Assembly: GCA_023014335.1 (NCBI GenBank)
Contig: JAECYW010000003.1
Location: 2,914,001-2,978,000 of the forward strand
Direction: 5' to 3'
DNA length: 64,000 nucleotides
Origin: Galerina marginata
Lineage: Eukaryota > Basidiomycota > Agaricomycetes > Agaricales > Galerinaceae
Of the stretch, positions 5,801 to 14,987 are shown one piece after another. A program made the position numbers and the translations under genes. How positions within the stretch are numbered: position 1 is the stretch's first letter; each line of letters begins with the position of its first letter. The notes below the pieces were generated by a model that was not told the origin of the DNA, did not search any database, and was given only the letters and a program-made list of their open reading frames with translations.

Positions 5801-8588
5801 ATGACGACCGAGAGTCCTTCAGTACGATCATCCCTTGCAGCGGGACCTGGTGTTGAAAGCTCGAAAGAGCTGGCTTATGTCGCGGTCAAGCGAGATGATT
5901 CACATAGCGAGCCTGATATAGAACGCATCGATGACGAGAGGCAGTTGAGTATATTTCGGAAGTTAACGAATGTCCTCCTGAGCTGGGGTATCGAAACACA
6001 TGGGTGAGTGTCCTCAATTGCACCCAAGTCCACCTCTGGTTCAACCCATGCACTTGTCAATCTCAGAATCACACCGATCTCAGCCGACAAACGTACCGAT
6101 AGGAGGGTATACCAACTCTTTTGGCTCTGGTTCTCCGCCAATTTCAACATTCTGGCTTTCGGTACTGGTAGCGCGGGTCCCGCATTTTTTGGTCTTGGAC
6201 TGAAGAACTCGCTGCTCGTTCTGCTCTTCGTTGACATTGTGTGAGTACAAGTTCCTTCTGATTGAGCCACATCCGACTTTTCGACAATGTCGACTTGTCC
6301 GGTTATAAGCGTATAACACAGATAACACATCCTTTTTTTTAGAACATGCGTAATTCCTGCGTATTTGTGCGTAATTTTCCATTTCCTAGCTTGCTTACTG
6401 AACACACAACCTTAATATCCAGTGCAGTATTTGGTCCTAAATTGGGGACGCGCGGGATGGTACAATGTCGATTTTCATGGGGGTTGGTATCTTTCATTTC
6501 CGGTCTTCCGAATATCCATCGTTTAAATACATTTTCCTTCTCACCGATAGGCTGTATGGCGCGATGATCCCGAGTGTCCTCAATGTCTTCTCTTCACAGG
6601 GTTTCCTCATCCTAAATTCTATCATTGGTGGACAAGCCCTAGCAGCGGTTTCGCATAGGTTAAACGACACTCTGGGGATTGTAATCATCAGCGTCATTTC
6701 CCTGGCAGTGCGTTTTTTTGATTCACTTCCTAATTTTGTTTCTCCCGCTTAATATCCCCAGGTTACTTTTTGCGGGTACAGATTTTTGCATATGTAGGAT
6801 TGACTTATCTTATTGACTCTTCTCGTCCTAATCCTCTTGATGTAGTTTCGAAAGTGTCGCCTGGGTTCCGAGTGCCATCGCGTTTCCTATCCTCATTGGT
6901 CTGGCTGGGAAACATCTCGACCCGTCAAACATGCCTCCAGTACCTTCGGCTTCCGCTGCCCAAGTGCTGTCGTTCACTTCCTTTGTGGCGTCAAGCGTGA
7001 TTAGCTGGTGTACTTTCACTCCAGATTATGGGGTTTATCACGAAAGCACGGCGTCAACGTAGGTTCCGTTGTGTAGTCTTGTCGAAGCCTTGACGATAAT
7101 AACCCATTGGTAGTTTGAAAATCTTCATCCATGTCTACTTTGGCTTTCTGACCCCAAGCGTGCATTCTCTTCCCATTATTACTTCCCCACCACATAATAT
7201 CTGACCTTCTTGCTTTGGACTATAGATTTCATGGCATATGCTTGGGGCCGCCTTCGCTGCTGCCGCTCCCGGAATTCCATCCTGGCAGTCCGGCTTTGAG
7301 GAGGGCAATAATGTCGGTGGCCTACTTGCCGCGGTTTTGGAACCTGCGGGCGGGTTTGGCAAATTTCTATTAGTGCTCATTGCATTAAGCACGTCTTGCG
7401 CTTGCGCCCCTACCATGTATACCTTTGGTAAGCTTCTAATATTTTTGAATTTCCCAGTTCCTGCGAATGCCTTTATCGTCTGGCACTTCGTTCCTCCTGG
7501 ATAACTTGTTAGGTATCTTACCTTCTCTTCACCACAAGGCATGAGTTTCATGGCTATTACGCCGTTCTTCGCTCGCGTACCTCGATACGTCTTTGCCATT
7601 ATTTCCGAAGCAATGTATGTCCTTTGGTTCATCTGCGTCAGACTCCAAGAATCATCGCATACTTTCTTTTTCAGACTTATACCCCTTGCAGTCATCGGCG
7701 CGAAGAAATTTTATACCACGCTTGTTGATGTCCTTAGAGTCTGTTCGGATGGCATAATCATAATTGATTATGATTATTGATGGCTTTCCGTTATTCTCAC
7801 CGACCAAATTTAGAACATCCATCATTCTCCCATGCCACGGAATGGCACGTCACATCCCTGCCGTTTTTTCCCCCCGACTGGTCAGCTCGTTGTCAGTCAC
7901 AGTGAGCAAGCCCCGAACGTGTAATTTTGCTACAATGACTGGCGCTGTGTAATAATTCAATTGATAATATATATCAGACCTTTTTTTGCTGTTTTATCTA
8001 CTTTAATCGCCCCAAACTGTAGAGTAAGCTTGAAAGGCGGGATGGGGGCGGGATGGGCGGGCACGTACAAGGGGCGTCGGCCTTGAATCGGGAACACGGT
8101 TGGGCACGGATGTCAAGGCGAAATTGATCCTTTCCCAATTCAGACTTGTGGGAATGATGCGAGTGCCATCAATAATCATAATCGATTATGATTATGCCAT
8201 CCGAACAGACTCTTAGTAAGTCTAGCAATCAAGCTCTTTATCAATAGAATTTTATTGACACAATTTTGTAGGCGTTATCGGCTACTGGTCCACAGCTTTC
8301 GCAGCCATAGTCCTAACTGAACACTTCCTGTTCCGCCATTCGTCCTTCCAGACATACAACATTTTGCACTGGAATAAGTCCAGCTTACTTCCACCTGGTA
8401 TTGCAGCGACCCTCGCTTTCTTGGGGTCATTCGGTATTATTGTACCAAGTATGCAACAAACGTGGTATACTGGTCCGATTGCGAAGGCGGGTACGGGGGA
8501 TATTGGTGTTTTCACCGGTGGGGTGGTTGCCGTGATTATTTACGCTATATTGAGGACCGTGGAGAGGCAGTTGTGGCCCGGGAGATAA
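5801..8588 (+). CDS. Purine-cytosine permease (NCS1, FCY2-like), interrupted by a MITE
   Basis: The first ATG of the long exon is at 5801 (MTTESPSVRSSL). The protein reads through about nine short introns. Blocks typical of fungal NCS1 purine-cytosine transporters follow in order: FWLWFSANFNILAFGTG, GPAFFGLGLKNSLLV, FGPKLGTRGMVQCRFSWG, YGAMIPSVLN, GQALAAVS, SWCTFTPDYGVYH, PTMYTFGMSFMAITPFFARVP, and a last exon from VIGYWSTAF to VERQLWPGR. About twelve hydrophobic segments fit plasma-membrane proton-coupled uptake of cytosine, adenine, guanine or hypoxanthine. A 476-bp MITE sits exactly at an exon 3' end (7737-8212). Reading into it meets a TGA at about 7778. Unless the MITE is spliced out by a donor I cannot see, the protein loses roughly its last 100 residues. 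The rest shows no other damage, so the hit is probably recent. Confidence 0.85.
7737..8212. mobile_element. Harbinger/Tourist-like MITE inside the permease gene
   Basis: The element is 476 bp with terminal inverted repeats of about 48 bp that differ at one position. Each starts GAGTCTGTTCGGATGGCATA and contains an AT-rich internal palindrome. It is flanked by a 3-bp direct repeat, TTA (7734-7736 and 8213-8215). A TTA/TAA target duplication plus a G-rich TIR with CTGTTCGG is the signature of PIF/Harbinger-derived MITEs. There is no coding capacity. The centre has a G-rich run (8036-8061). Removing the element and one TTA restores a normal exon end followed by GTAAGT. Confidence 0.9.
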
Positions 8589-8725: not shown

Positions 8726-8907
8726 CAGACCTCAGGCTAGACCGGTAACCGTTCGGAGAATGAGGAGAGGATGGAGAGTCCTCGATTCTCCGACCGGAAG
8801 AGCTGAGTTCGAAAAGGGGGTGTAACTCTTATGATCGAGGATTTGATGATGGAACGTTCGAAAGAAAAAAGAAGCAGTCCATTTTAGGACAACTGCCTAA
8901 TTAGGTT
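8726..8907 (+). repeat. Left inverted repeat of the DUF6589/RecQ element
   Basis: Matches the reverse complement of 14803-14987. Identity is near-complete from GAGCTGAGTTCGAAAAGGGG to the inner end CTAATTAGGTT, and weaker toward the outside, where both copies carry a CCTNAGG core. The inner end is about 85 bp upstream of the DUF6589-like ATG, so the repeat probably also carries that gene's promoter. Confidence 0.85.
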
Positions 8908-8993
8908 TTCCTTTGAGTTATTATTAGAACAATTTTTTTTTCTGAGCTCTCACCACTGCGTCGTCGCGCTCGCCTCGTCAATTCTCCTGTGTA

Positions 8994-11900
8994 ATGCCTC
9001 CTCCTTCTCCAGTCTTCTCGGTCAACCCTTCGTTGAACCCCAGAGAGTCTGCTAGTGCGGCTTCATCAACGGGAAGTTTTGCGCTGGATGGCAGTGCTGC
9101 AGCCCAACGTCCAACTCGACAGAGGGCAAATACAATGCCCTGGAACCGCCGCGGAATGGCGTTCAGATCTTGGAACCAACCCTTACCGCCTTCATCTGCT
9201 CCTTTGACCCTTCCACAGGCGTTTTCGGGCTTAAATGACGTGGGATACTCGGTGGAAGATAATGCAGATGTGGAGATGAGTTTTGGGGACACAGGCAGCA
9301 ACACGAAGGACTGTTTTGAAGGCCAGGATAGGCACATACACAAGTACTATTAAATTGTCACTTTTTGTCAGTATTACTCCACTTATAAGAGCATTTTTGC
9401 ATAAAGCGCCTCAGGGCTGTCTTTTAACGTACCTCGACAACATCAAGACTTCGCTCAGCGTGCTTCGACTGAACTCAGTCTGCCCATCTACGCAGGTACT
9501 AATCCAAATAGCAGCCCATCCTTTCAAGTTTCGCGAGCCAGTCTGGACCGTTCGCGATATGTTTCAATGCCGAATACACCATCTATGGGTGGCTACCCCA
9601 GCCATGATTCAACAAGTGGCGAGAGCCCAGTACATCCTAATTACCACTGGAGGCCGCCAAGCACACCACGCTATCCCACTTACGAGCAATTTCGGCCTCC
9701 GAGTCCAATGACTGTTGATAGTCGCAATCAAAACACTTTTCACCGAGCACTCTCATCGTCAGCTTTATTTGAGCGTCCTGAAAACTCGTGGGGGCAATCG
9801 CCAGCGCAGAGTTCTTTCTCCGTCGAGGACCAAAACTCGCCGGATTTATCACCACTTCCATTCTTGAGGGACCTACCATCTCGAGGATCCATCGCACCAA
9901 CCGCTTCAGCTTCATCTCTCGATTCGGGTTTGTCCAGCCCGATTACTCGTCTCCGCGACCATAAAATCTCGAAAACAGACGTCGCTTACGGGGTTCTTAA
10001 GCAGCTTCAAAAAGCTAAACTCACTCTTACAGATCTCATAGGCTATGTTATGTCTGGAGAAGGCGATTTTCTTTTTTACCGCAAAGCTTTTCTTGGTGAA
10101 AAAAATAGCCAGGCCCTCCTCGATGTTTTTACGAAGATCTTTGATGATTCGAAAGGCGCGGAGCTTACGCGCGACTGGCTACTCCCTCGAGCTGTTGAAC
10201 TGGTATGCGAGACAGTTCACCGTGAAATGGAGCAAGCAAAACCACTCTTGAGAATGCATGCCAACCAAGTCACTCCAGAATTTATCGATAGTTGGGACAT
10301 CAACAAAATTATGGAGCCTGTTGAAAAGCTAACACCTACGTGGTCCGCGGTCTTTGAAGCAGCCGCCGAATCAAAAATCTCGAAGAAAAAACCCAAAACT
10401 GCGAAATCCAGAAACCGAAAGACGGTAAATTTATATTCTCTGATTGAAGAGAATGATTTGACACTTTTCCATTAGGGTACATTTATTCTCCATGCCGGCG
10501 TTCACTACCTCCGGTCATTTAGGTCCTGTAAGGTTCAAATTGGACTTAGTTTGATGGGCTGGAGCTCGGGAATCTCGAAAGCGTTCATGTCCGTCCTTCA
10601 CCACTCATGTCTTTCAATCGAACATTCCACGATTGACAAGATTATTACTGCACTTGCCAACGGCTCAATTGAACAAGCTCGAAGAATCGCATCTGGCCCT
10701 CACGGCGTCGGATACGACAATGTCAATGTTTCCACATCTATCTTCGTCGAACAAGTTCCCGGAATGCCTAGCAAAGTCCAGTCGGGGACTTTGGGTGTTA
10801 TCTACGAGCTTTTAAATGCACGTCCCGAGCATATGAAAGTGAAACCCATGGTTGAAAACTTCAGAAATTCTGGTCCGTTATTGCTCTTTGATGTCCGTCC
10901 CAAAATCGCCTCCATTCAATCATATGCGACACACACGAACATTAACATTGTCGACATTCTATTCAAAAACACTGACGGTTTTGATCCGGAGTTGAAAGCT
11001 GACCCTCGCTTCCAACATCCTCCTCGACGTATTGGTCCTACTGGCCATAAAACAAAGTTCTACCCCCTTCGAGCAACAACAATTGAAGAGGCAAGTGTTG
11101 AAGGCAATCTGGCTGTTCACGATGATATCTATACAGTTCAACTTGACCGCAAGACCAGTGACCTCAGCGAGAACGCAATACCATCATACAATGATCAATT
11201 AACGAATGCCCGAATTCGAGGGGCACAAGAGCTTCGTCGCATGGATATCTCTTCATGGGAGCGCCGAGAAGTATTCCAATTGGCATTTGGGACGTTCCAT
11301 CTCGTTATGAATCTTCTCTGGGCTTTGCTTCACACACACCGCGGTAGTATCAGACAAGTTGGCAGCCTAACATATTTCTTTTCCATTCTAGACAAGACGC
11401 GGCTCGGCGGCGAACATCCAGATTACCACACCCTTCTCACAGCACTTACTCAGGTCCTTGAAGGCTTGATCTTGAATGCATGGCGAGCCGAATGTGGCAA
11501 AGAATCTCTGGAAGACTTTGCCAAAAGCAATCCAAGTGCCGAGGAGATCCTTCAGCTTGCCAGCAAAATTGTAGAGCGACACACAGTGCCTGAGCCCATG
11601 CCATGCAAACCAGCTAATCCAAAGGTACCTCTTAAAGACCTCGACCCTGCAACGGATTCAAGTCATAAAGAGACAAGTCAGAATGGTAACAACAACGACC
11701 TTGCAGATGAGGATAATATTCCGGCCACGGACTCCGAGTCAGGCTCTGATTCTGATTCCGAGTCAGACGATGGTGACATTGTCCGCGAAAATATTGTTCT
11801 GCTAACACGGGACTTACTCTACGTGATCGAGCTTGTCAACGCTATTCAAACTGGTGATTTTGGCCGCATTGAAGACATCCTGCCCACGCTAGCTTGTATG

Positions 11901-12649
11901 TTTCGAGGTGCCGGCTCAAATAATTATTCCACCGAGATTCTTCATCTCCTTTTCAATATCAAGGAGGTCTGGACACCTGAGTTTGCGTATATTGCCTTTA
12001 TTTTATTTATTCATGAACCTATTCTAAACACCGTCATTCTACAGGAATATCATGTGAGACAACATGCTTGTCAACGTATCTGGACATCCTGGGCATTGGA
12101 TGGCAATTGACCTCAATATCGAACACTTAATTGGTTATCTAAAGGCAAGCCAACTTATCGGAACAGTCATCATTATGCTCAACCCAAAGACAGGCCTTGT
12201 TTGCTGCAAAGGGGATTTACTCCAACTGGGAACGACTGGGGAACATTGCAGCAGCTATTAATCACTTGCAAGCAGTCAAGAAACAGGTTTCGCGATCTCT
12301 CAAGTCTGGCTATCAAGGTAATAGCCACGCGAAGGCTGACCTATCTGTTGGCATCCACCGCATTTCCAACAAGGCTCGAGAACTCCAACTTGAAAAGAAA
12401 ATAAGTAAACGTCCAGGCAACGAGAGCACGAAGCAAAGTGTGGACTTGATCAGAATCGGATACCAAAAATTCGAATCGTCGTCGCTTGCAACATTTAACA
12501 AAAAGATCGAAGACTCAAAGCACGGTATCCTTTCAATTAGTGAAGTTGATGAGATTGCACCACTCGGTATCAATGTTCGTTCACCCGACGATGATGATGA
12601 TAGTCACATTGACCAAGAATCTGTATTACACGATGATATGACGGACTGA
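8994..12649 (+). CDS. DUF6589-like protein, probably carrying a nonsense mutation
   Basis: A large gene starting at the ATG at 8994 (MPPPSPVFSVNPS). It has a Ser/Pro-rich, low-complexity N-terminus and then a folded part. Conserved-looking blocks include YGVLKQLQKAKLTLTDLIGY, VFQLAFGTFHLVMNLLWALL, TRLGGEHPDYHTLL, LNAWRAECG, NMLVNVSGHPGHWMAIDLNI and LFAAKGIYSNWERLG. I recognise this as the basidiomycete DUF6589 type (family assignment from memory). The middle holds an acidic Ser/Asp/Glu tract at about 11720-11780. After the intron ending at 12044 the frame reads N-I-M-stop (TGA 12055-12057) and then continues in the same frame with clearly conserved sequence. A sense codon there (for example CGA to TGA) would restore a full frame. 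A later intron uses GC-AG ends (about 12145-12191). Function is unknown; no transposase or nuclease motif was seen. It converges on the RecQ-like gene. Confidence 0.7.
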
Positions 12650-12662
12650 TACCAATTCTAAT

Positions 12663-14735
12663 CTACTTCTTTTGGCGCTTGTTTCGGACCTTAAGGGCAT
12701 TTAGATCCTGACCATATCTCTGAATGACTGCGAAAATCTTCTCTGCCCATTCTGTTGCCCATTCATCACTCTCGCCAAGCAATGTTTTGATGTCTGATGT
12801 CGAGTTGATCTCCTTTGCTTGAACACGAACGAGAGTTGCGCGTTGAGCGTCGGACAGAATGAAATACATAGGCCGAATGGAGCGTAAAGGATCGGATGCG
12901 TGTTCAGTTTGTAACCACTGTATTAGTCGATAGTCCAATGAAACTCGCTCCTTCGTCGGACGATAATTCTTCGCAGGAGCTCTCTTGCGCTTATTTGACG
13001 GCTCAGCAGGAGGCGGCGAGAATATAATACCTGGAAGGAAATCTTGGAGGTTGAGTGGATTTTCTGCATGACAAAAACTGCAACAAAATTTCGCAGAATG
13101 AACCAAAGCTGAAAAGGATCAGTTTGAATTAAATAAGGTTGTATTTTCTACATACCTTCCGGCGATTCGTCACGCAGATAGTCCGCAAATTGTTTTCGAA
13201 GACACTTTTTCTCCTGGATAAGCTTCACCCCATGGTATGGGATACGTTCACGACGTTGCGATGTTGGCTTGAGGATTCCTCGTGGTCGATCCAGATCTGC
13301 GAGATCTCCTTGGCTATAATCATTGATATCTATTTCATTTACCCATGGATCGTAGAAAATCACAAATAAAGCGTCTTGGTTTGAGTTCCGTAAGACGCGC
13401 CCTCCACGTTGAAGTGTGTCAATAGTAGTTGAAGGTAGACCGGCAGTGACAACGATTTCAACGTTTGGAAAGTCGACGCCCTGAAAGAGAGTAAGATCAC
13501 CATAGTCATTATCCAAACATAAACGTACCACAGATTGGGCCGATGTCGCAACCATAATTCGACATGTCCCATTTGGTTCAGTGAATGATCGGTGTGCCAT
13601 TTGCAGGTAACTTTCCGACATCTGGCTGTGGTAATGTAAAACCATACCTCTGTTTTGAAGGAGCGGAGGAAGGGAGGAGTCTAGGAAATGAGTTATTTTC
13701 GAGGCAAGAGCCTTATTGTCCACAAAGATGAGAATGCGAGGTTGAGTTGTCGGGTTGAATGGAGGAGCTGAAAGAAAACACTGATAATTTCGAAGATCCT
13801 CAATGTTATTGACTACTTCGTGTGCTGCATATGTCGTATTTGGGCGGTTCGAAGTGAGGTGTATGCGAACATAGTTTGGGCGCAAAATTTCAAGCTCCAC
13901 AGTTTTCAGTATCTGCGGAGTAAACGTAGCCGACAGAGCACACCAGCGAGTTGTGTGCGGGAGAAGCGCCTTTAGTTCGTCCAGTTTTCCCCAAGCAGGT
14001 CGAAAAGCATCAAGACCATAGTGAGGCTGCCCTGCAGAGCCAAGATTATGTGCTTCGTCGACAATAACTCGTGAGATCCGCCGCTGAAAGTGGTTGTTGC
14101 GCAGAAGCAATGCGAGCCTAGGTAAATGTCCAGCTCGAGTTCGAAAAAGCTGTTCAACTGTCACAATAAGATGCCGTGCTTGTCCAGGTGTTCGTGTTTT
14201 GGCGTTAAAGACATTTTTCTAGGGCAAGTCGTAAAAATGGCAGGGTAAAGGGACCGTGACTTACATCCCACCACGAGTCATCTCCAGGGGTATCCTCATT
14301 GATAACGACAGTGCGAATTCCGTAACGTGAATTAAAATCATTTTCTTGAGTGACCTGGAGGCGCTTCAAGGGAGAAAGTGTGATCGTAGTGAGCAAGTCG
14401 GCAGGGTTTTCCAGAAGGACCTTCAGTGCAGTCGGCAGAGTCTTGCCAGAGCCAGTTCCAGCCGAAATCAGTGAATCTAAACCATGTTGATCAGCCAAGA
14501 CAGCGCGTAATTGCATCTCCCGAGGTATTTGTTCTCTCCCAGTGACAGCATAGCATATCAATATAGCCCGCCAGCATATGGCCTTGTCCGAGTCCTTGAG
14601 AGCATTGATGAAAACCGAGAGAAATCGAGAGTCAGAGTCCAGTGAGAGGTCATGAAGGTGCTTTTCAAGTTCATTGGCGGGGCATGTTCTGATATTCGCA
14701 AGCGTTGACGGCAGTAGAGGGACCGGGTCTGTCAT
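12663..14735 (-). CDS. RecQ-like DEAH helicase of the TIR element
   Basis: The ATG at 14735 (MTDPVPLLPSTLAN) is the first in frame; the frame upstream runs into the inverted repeat without an ATG. Helicase motifs occur in order: Walker A SAGTGSGKTLPTAL, TLSPLKRL, DEAH box VIVDEAHNLGS, motif III LSATFTPQ, IFVDNKALA, MVATSA followed by GVDFPNVEIVV, and motif VI QRGGRVLRN. A cysteine cluster (FCCSFCH) and a basic tail ending RNKRQKK follow. This is a superfamily 2, RecQ-like ATP-dependent DNA helicase of about 630 residues. Introns were placed at about 14206-14263, 13482-13530 and 13105-13155. The frame looks intact. Because it sits convergently with the DUF6589-like gene between inverted repeats, it probably serves the element's replication or mobility rather than general DNA repair. 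Nuclear location is inferred. Confidence 0.8.
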
Positions 14736-14802
14736 GAAGAGGGCGACGCGACGCGATGGTGAGAGTTGAAGAAAACGGCATTCTATTATTAACTCGACGG
14801 AC

Positions 14803-14987
14803 AACCTAATTAGGCAGTTGTCCTAAAATGGACTGCTTCTTTTTTCTTTCGAACGTTCCATCATCAAATCCTCGATCATAAGAGTTACACCCCCTTTTCG
14901 AACTCAGCTCGACCAGCCGGAGAATCGAGGACTTCCCATCCTCACTCATTCGACGGATGGTTACGAGCCTAACCTCAGGCTTAGTCT
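14803..14987 (-). repeat. Right inverted repeat of the DUF6589/RecQ element
   Basis: Reverse complement of the left repeat. The inner end begins at AACCTAATTAG (14803), about 70 bp upstream of the helicase ATG, so each repeat lies directly upstream of one of the element's genes and may act as its promoter. Beyond 14987 a second CCTCAGGCTT occurs near 15025, so the true outer edge could lie further out. Confidence 0.85.

Follow-up and report, generated by a model that had tools for sequence, protein, structure and literature searches.

A DUF6589 transposon carrying a RecQ-like helicase gene in Galerina marginata, very probably of the AcademH kind

A stretch of 64,000 nt (the window; C23:2914001-2978000) of the 69.3-Mb, 43-contig assembly of Galerina marginata contains a DNA transposon of 6,234 bp at window positions 8738-14971, in which a DUF6589 gene and a RecQ-like helicase gene are convergent, tail to tail, between terminal inverted repeats (TIRs). 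The element is very probably a TIR transposon of the AcademH kind, with the DUF6589 protein as aspartate-aspartate-glutamate (DDE) transposase and the helicase as a second factor. The ends of the element, its target-site duplications (TSDs), further copies, unoccupied paralogous sites, the pairing of the two genes and mobilised short copies that lack genes were all observed in the genome. A preliminary description of this DNA had taken the region for a mobile element, and the copies, the 9-bp TSDs, the unoccupied paralogous sites and the non-random gene pairing bear this out. Its further proposal, an undescribed element type that lacks a transposase, is most likely wrong, since AcademH is already known and the DUF6589 protein appears to have a DDE layout.

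Ends, copies and target sites

The element is directly flanked on both sides by the 9-mer ACCTCAGGC, a perfect 9-bp TSD (Table 1). An unguided repeat search returned one long inverted pair around both genes, with arms of 176 nt at 8767-8942 and 14768-14943 that are 90% complementary, so that the two convergent genes do lie between long inverted repeats as had been proposed. The repeat length had been given as ~180 bp at that time; when aligned from the true ends, the TIRs extend over ~230 bp, with 198 of 229 columns identical. The inner part of the TIR contains 108 consecutive identical bases (8800-8907) and the outermost ~60 bp are less similar. The bounds first proposed, 8726-14987, enclosed a real element, the exact ends of which lie slightly inward.

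The predicted start codons are located 257 bp (DUF6589) and 237 bp (helicase) from the element ends, just inside the TIRs, and the promoter of either gene would thus fall largely within a TIR. In the three-copy family described below, which has TIRs of 239 bp, the first ATGs lie 313 bp inward of one end and 300 bp inward of the other. In its anatomy the element agrees with the notion that each repeat adjoins the upstream side of one gene and is both an element end and a promoter region, and the repeats may act as inward promoters.

The genome was searched with 301 bases of each end of the window element, and matches were found at at least 18 and at least 23 places for the two ends; among them, distant matches (76-80%) at seven places lie outside the delimited set. 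A pattern search that allowed up to one mismatch located end B at 12 places (one in the reversed control) and end A at seven (none in the reversed control). Twelve insertions were delimited; C1:977304, C43:920986, C41:1585315, C16:375922, C3:2173572, C18:410468 and C43:416206 were excluded from this set. Ten of the 12 have an exact 9-bp TSD; of the remaining two, one has an exact 8-bp TSD and the other a 9-bp TSD with a single mismatch. For the seven excluded end fragments, a second copy of the outer 9-mer (up to one mismatch) was not found in the flanking stretch examined.

Both the A and the B end are present in five insertions of the window family, and all five have exact 9-bp TSDs. The 756-bp copy on C40 aligns to the outer parts of the window element over 340 bp on the left (78%) and 366 bp on the right (76%), which is beyond the TIRs on both sides and identifies it as an internally deleted derivative. 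Two copies of 52 bp (C12:2147647-2147698 and C8:76000-76051) have one B end and stop on the other side at an internal GAGAATC; the 9-bp TSD is exact for one of them and contains a mismatch for the other. The ends of these two copies are GAG..CTA, those of the other elements TAG..CTA. Since both 52-bp insertions break off at GAGAATC, a cryptic second end can apparently serve the element.

Furthermore, a sister family comprises three elements of 5,629 bp that do not differ at a single base, lie on three contigs in differing flanks and have their own TSDs, ACAGGCAC (8 bp), CAAACATGG and GCTGGGATG (9 bp). This family is recently mobile. Two more full elements of like layout are flanked by the 9-bp TSDs GGTCCACTC and GAAAGGACC. 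Across the four full families, the TIRs span 131-239 aligned columns and are 79-100% identical. The repeats therefore recur elsewhere in the genome as bounded insertions with TSDs of their own. As a separate observation, in the joined flanks of the sister-family copy on C43 the TSD CAAACATGG extends across what may be the ATG of an open frame, and this copy may interrupt the start of a gene.

Unoccupied sites were sought by comparing the joined flanks of the 12 insertions (60 + 60 bases with one copy of the TSD) with the genome; 40 of the 44 candidates were scored, and the counts are lower bounds. At least three of the 12 insertions had matches running across the junction. The element at C23:772507 has unoccupied paralogues at at least 16 places, the best of which (C4:467185-467304) matches at 95% along the full 120 bases; base-by-base reading covered two of the 16. 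For the 99-bp copy on C5 there are two such places and for the 756-bp copy on C40 one, all of them read. At each of the five sites read, the 9-mer that is duplicated around the insertion occurs just once. The empty sites that the preliminary description had called for thus exist for part of the set; among the candidates scored, none was found for the other nine insertions, including the window element and the three identical copies.

Elsewhere, the left flank of the window element found matches solely inside a separate small element with inverted repeats. This element, at window positions 7733-8216 beside the transposon, has 52-bp inverted repeats (96%), and related stretches occur on C21, C9 and C4.

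The two genes and their pairing

The gene on the plus strand was confirmed as DUF6589-like by its match to Pfam DUF6589 (PF20231; E 2.8e-78, main frame); the C-terminal part of the profile matches a later frame at E 3.9e-5, below the curated cut-off. Conservation was evaluated in an alignment of 233 proteins; besides the two queries it included 231 of the 240 homologues returned, those with a length of at least 430 aa. In the numbering of the three-copy protein, D77 (218/221), D241 (209/210) and E448 (227/232) are near-invariant, as are two residues of a GxxH motif, G275 (229/232) and H278 (231/232).

A structure model of the three-copy protein (90 sequences) had a predicted local distance difference test score (pLDDT) of 90.4 and a predicted template modelling score (pTM) of 0.89. 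In it, D77 belongs to the first long strand (71-84), D241 and the GxxH motif immediately follow strands 236-240 and 270-274, respectively, and E448 lies in a helix (443-459) past a long helical stretch. The model of the 544-aa frame of the window (70 sequences; pLDDT 82.8, pTM 0.81) positions D81, D240, G272-x-x-H275 and E487 in the same way. DDE transposases whose RNase H fold is interrupted by an insertion domain have D, D and E placed in this way. When the models were compared with known structures by Foldseek, as had been suggested, one gave the P-element transposase first (E 0.022; probability 0.97 and 0.96), and ISCth4, RAG1 and Transib were among its first 50 matches beside unrelated proteins. 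The other gave Hermes in the first to third places (E 0.13-0.52; probability 0.85, 0.60 and 0.54). Because these E-values are weak, the fold evidence is supportive and not conclusive alone. Since the near-invariant D, D and E are placed as in DDE transposases and the best, albeit weak, fold matches are to P-element and Hermes transposases, the DUF6589 protein is most likely the transposase, its catalysis being predicted from conservation and modelled fold. The copies with TSDs and the gene pairing point the same way, and the earlier suggestion that this protein is the mobility enzyme is likely correct.

The named relatives listed for the proteins of the window element come from mushroom-forming fungi, and no relatives were found in the viral contigs or prokaryote genomes searched. 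The single literature match to PF20231, in a nanophotonics paper, looks unrelated.

In the spliced reading of the window gene, which includes a predicted intron at 11987-12044 as the homologues call for, there is an in-frame TGA at 12055-12057. Four homologues were compared at this position, and three have R and one has C. The premature stop lies ahead of about the final fifth of the protein, and the conserved E is upstream of it. Because of this stop, and given the predicted intron placement, the window copy has probably lost its autonomy.

A divergent DUF6589 clade is represented by C34:3612236-3613258 and C34:3660752-3661765, and its named members are from mushroom-forming fungi. Each of the 16 clade rows aligned has GxxH changed to D, the residues around the first D are altered, and the C34:3660752-3661765 copy, like some others, has lost the second D. 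The helicase was not detected within 20 kb of either C34 locus. These genes are candidate inactive or co-opted transposase genes.

The gene on the minus strand encodes a RecQ-like helicase, as first described. It matches Pfam Helicase_C (E 1.8e-10) and, more weakly and below the curated cut-off, DEAD, and it contains the motifs GTGSGKT and DEAH. The best match in the PDB is the Bloom syndrome (RecQ) helicase (E 1.7e-4), and five of the seven PDB sequences at E<=0.01 are Bloom helicases.

The genome contains 45 DUF6589 matches at 30 loci and, with the helicases of the window and the three-copy family as queries, 35 helicase matches at 20 loci. A helicase lies within 5 kb at 14 of the 30 DUF6589 loci, in all 14 cases tail to tail, as against a chance expectation of 0.09; conversely, 14 of the 20 helicase loci are within 5 kb of DUF6589. 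Four of the 14 pairs are the source elements of the queries (the window element and the three sister-family copies), and without them the counts are 10/26 and 10/16. The two genes are thus paired non-randomly, DUF6589 genes are associated with repeats as well, and the repeats are neither confined to this site nor without a second full copy of like layout. At C43:2282214 and C43:2293830, two DUF6589-helicase units lie 11.6 kb apart in the same direction and differ at 53 of the 4,089 bases compared; they are either a tandem duplication or two insertions.

Table 1. Features of the window element (window positions) and the related insertions (contig positions)
Feature	Position	Strand	Basis or size
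Left TSD copy, ACCTCAGGC	8729..8737	.	exact match to 14972-14980
Left TIR, end A (TAGACCGGTAACC...)	8738..8971	+	repeat search, end alignment; genome occurrences
DUF6589 gene, likely DDE transposase, several exons	8994..12649	+	Pfam PF20231; exon frames compared with homologues
Predicted introns of DUF6589 gene	10425-10475 and 11987-12044 among them	+	splice reading compared with homologues
Main DUF6589 frame, 544 aa, candidate catalytic D81, D240, E487	10476..12110	+	conservation; structure model
RecQ-like superfamily 2 helicase gene	12663..14735	-	frames 14205-14735, 13148-14218 and 12663-13118, presumably intron-joined
Right TIR, end B (TAGGCTCGTAACC... on minus strand)	14739..14971	-	repeat search, end alignment; genome occurrences
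Right TSD copy, ACCTCAGGC	14972..14980	.	exact match to 8729-8737
Window-family insertions with A and B ends	window; C40; C5; C43:3027327; C9		window element; 756 bp; 99 bp; 93 bp; 93 bp
Sister-family copy	C2:824548-830176		5,629 bp
Sister-family copy	C43:1294891-1300519		5,629 bp
Sister-family copy	C16:559847-565475	-	5,629 bp
Further full element, TAGTCTCG ends	C23:2375286-2380748		5,463 bp
Further full element, TAGTCTCG ends	C23:772507-778562		6,056 bp

Comparison with known transposons

The AcademH kind appears to be the most economical filing for the element, because the helicase and the 9-10-bp TSDs match the descriptions of AcademH, on which the likeness is drawn rather than on transposase sequence. 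AcademH elements have terminal inverted repeats, and these are present in the window element and the other full families. In AcademH a helicase lies beside the transposase, which is paralleled here by the Helicase_C and DEAD matches of a Bloom-like protein. AcademH, a lineage of Academ transposons, reportedly goes back to Kojima (2020, Mob DNA 11:15). PMC10045372 gives TSDs of 9 or 10 bp for AcademH and of 3 or 4 bp for AcademX and ties them to the encoded helicase or nuclease; here they are 9 bp in 11 of the 12 insertions (one with the mismatch) and 8 bp in one. A transposase of the DDE kind would be matched by the conserved D, D and E in the two models, whose fold matches are weak. Occurrence in Basidiomycota is a further likeness: the lineage received its name in 2020, and PMC10045372 and PMC10799480 report AcademH from this phylum, where it is a low-copy element. 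Academ is listed among the DDD/E superfamilies (PMC9587614), and widespread insertions of putative non-autonomous Academ elements are described for the mushroom Marasmius oreades in PMC8290104.

Several observations weigh against this assignment. The link to AcademH is one of description, and homology of DUF6589 to an Academ transposase is putative. Foldseek listed 208 matches for one model and 35 for the other at E 10 or below, unrelated proteins among them, and none reached E 0.001; the DUF6589 sequence profile found nothing at E<=1 among solved structures. A helicase was not detected within 5 kb at 16 of the 30 DUF6589 loci; many of these unpaired loci are fragments by match length, and other helicase subfamilies may escape the two queries. 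One of the three identical copies has a TSD of 8 bp. Additionally, the joined flanks of the window element matched only their own two halves, and among the candidates scored no unoccupied site was found for this copy.

The possibility was considered that the DUF6589-RecQ elements form a superfamily of their own, not homologous to Academ, which acquired the helicase and the 9-bp TSD by convergence. Another lineage, KolobokH, also took up a helicase, the name DUF6589 was absent from the 5.39 million open-licence papers searched, and AcademH was compared by description only. However, the helicase, the 9-bp TSD, the TIRs and the basidiomycete-like host all agree with the reports of AcademH or Academ, and convergence is improbable. 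It is similarly unlikely that a separate eukaryotic superfamily, defined by the 9-bp TSD, TAG..CTA ends and a convergent RecQ-like helicase, has expanded in mushroom-forming fungi and is still jumping.

KolobokH resembles the present element in that it combines a transposase with a RecQ helicase and is found only in fungi. Kolobok, however, makes TTAA-specific 4-bp TSDs and has 5'-RR..YY-3' ends, whereas the TSDs here are 8-9 bp, none of the 12 insertions has TTAA and the ends are TAG..CTA or GAG..CTA. Because Kolobok duplicates TTAA and the target duplications differ, a Kolobok transposon with a RecQ helicase is excluded for practical purposes.

In fold, the two DUF6589 models matched the P element and hAT (Hermes) transposases best, and the usual 8-bp TSD of hAT is close in length to the 8-9 bp found here. 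DUF6589 differs from both in having no sequence-level match to them in the Pfam scans or among the solved structures. P elements and hAT elements are not known to have a helicase gene. AcademX, the nuclease of which is XPG, was rejected as a layout, the nearest XPG_I place being ~50 kb from any of the 45 DUF6589 places. Eighteen XPG_I places are listed in the genome, several with internal stops and some in equal-scoring sets, and these are perhaps another repeated element. MULE/MuDR elements have long inverted repeats. Their TSDs are of similar length (4-10 bp for MuDR and IS256 in PMC10045372); no MULE Pfam domain was found in the scanned proteins, and the transposase candidate gave DUF6589 only.

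That two host genes lie by chance between an unrelated inverted repeat could appeal to the single full copy of the window family among the places found, but it is refuted by the recurrence of the repeats as bounded insertions with their own TSDs, the pairing at 14 loci and the identical sister-family copies at unrelated sites, and its probability is negligible.

Proposed mechanism and significance

Most likely, the transposase is made from the gene beside one TIR and the helicase from the gene beside the other. The DUF6589 protein, with its predicted RNase H-fold DDE domain, would recognise and pair the TAG(N)CTCG-type ends and excise the element, that is, by cut-and-paste rather than by copying. 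The ends would then be joined to the target DNA at points staggered by 9 bp, and this would produce the 9-bp TSD. The RecQ-like helicase may act as a second element-encoded factor, plausibly by unwinding the ends or the target DNA or by aiding repair. The copies of 52-99 bp, which are little more than ends and have their own TSDs, suggest that nothing beyond the ends is needed in cis, with the proteins acting in trans.

A helicase-encoding transposon lineage with 9-10-bp TSDs was already known in AcademH. Were the elements instead a separate superfamily, the three identical copies would mean that the element is still jumping. What is new is a concrete and testable function, that of a DDE transposase, for DUF6589, which Pfam lists as being of unknown function. 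Moreover, the clean set of copies provides a recently mobile helicase-carrying transposon as a starting point for examining the role of a helicase in cut-and-paste transposition.

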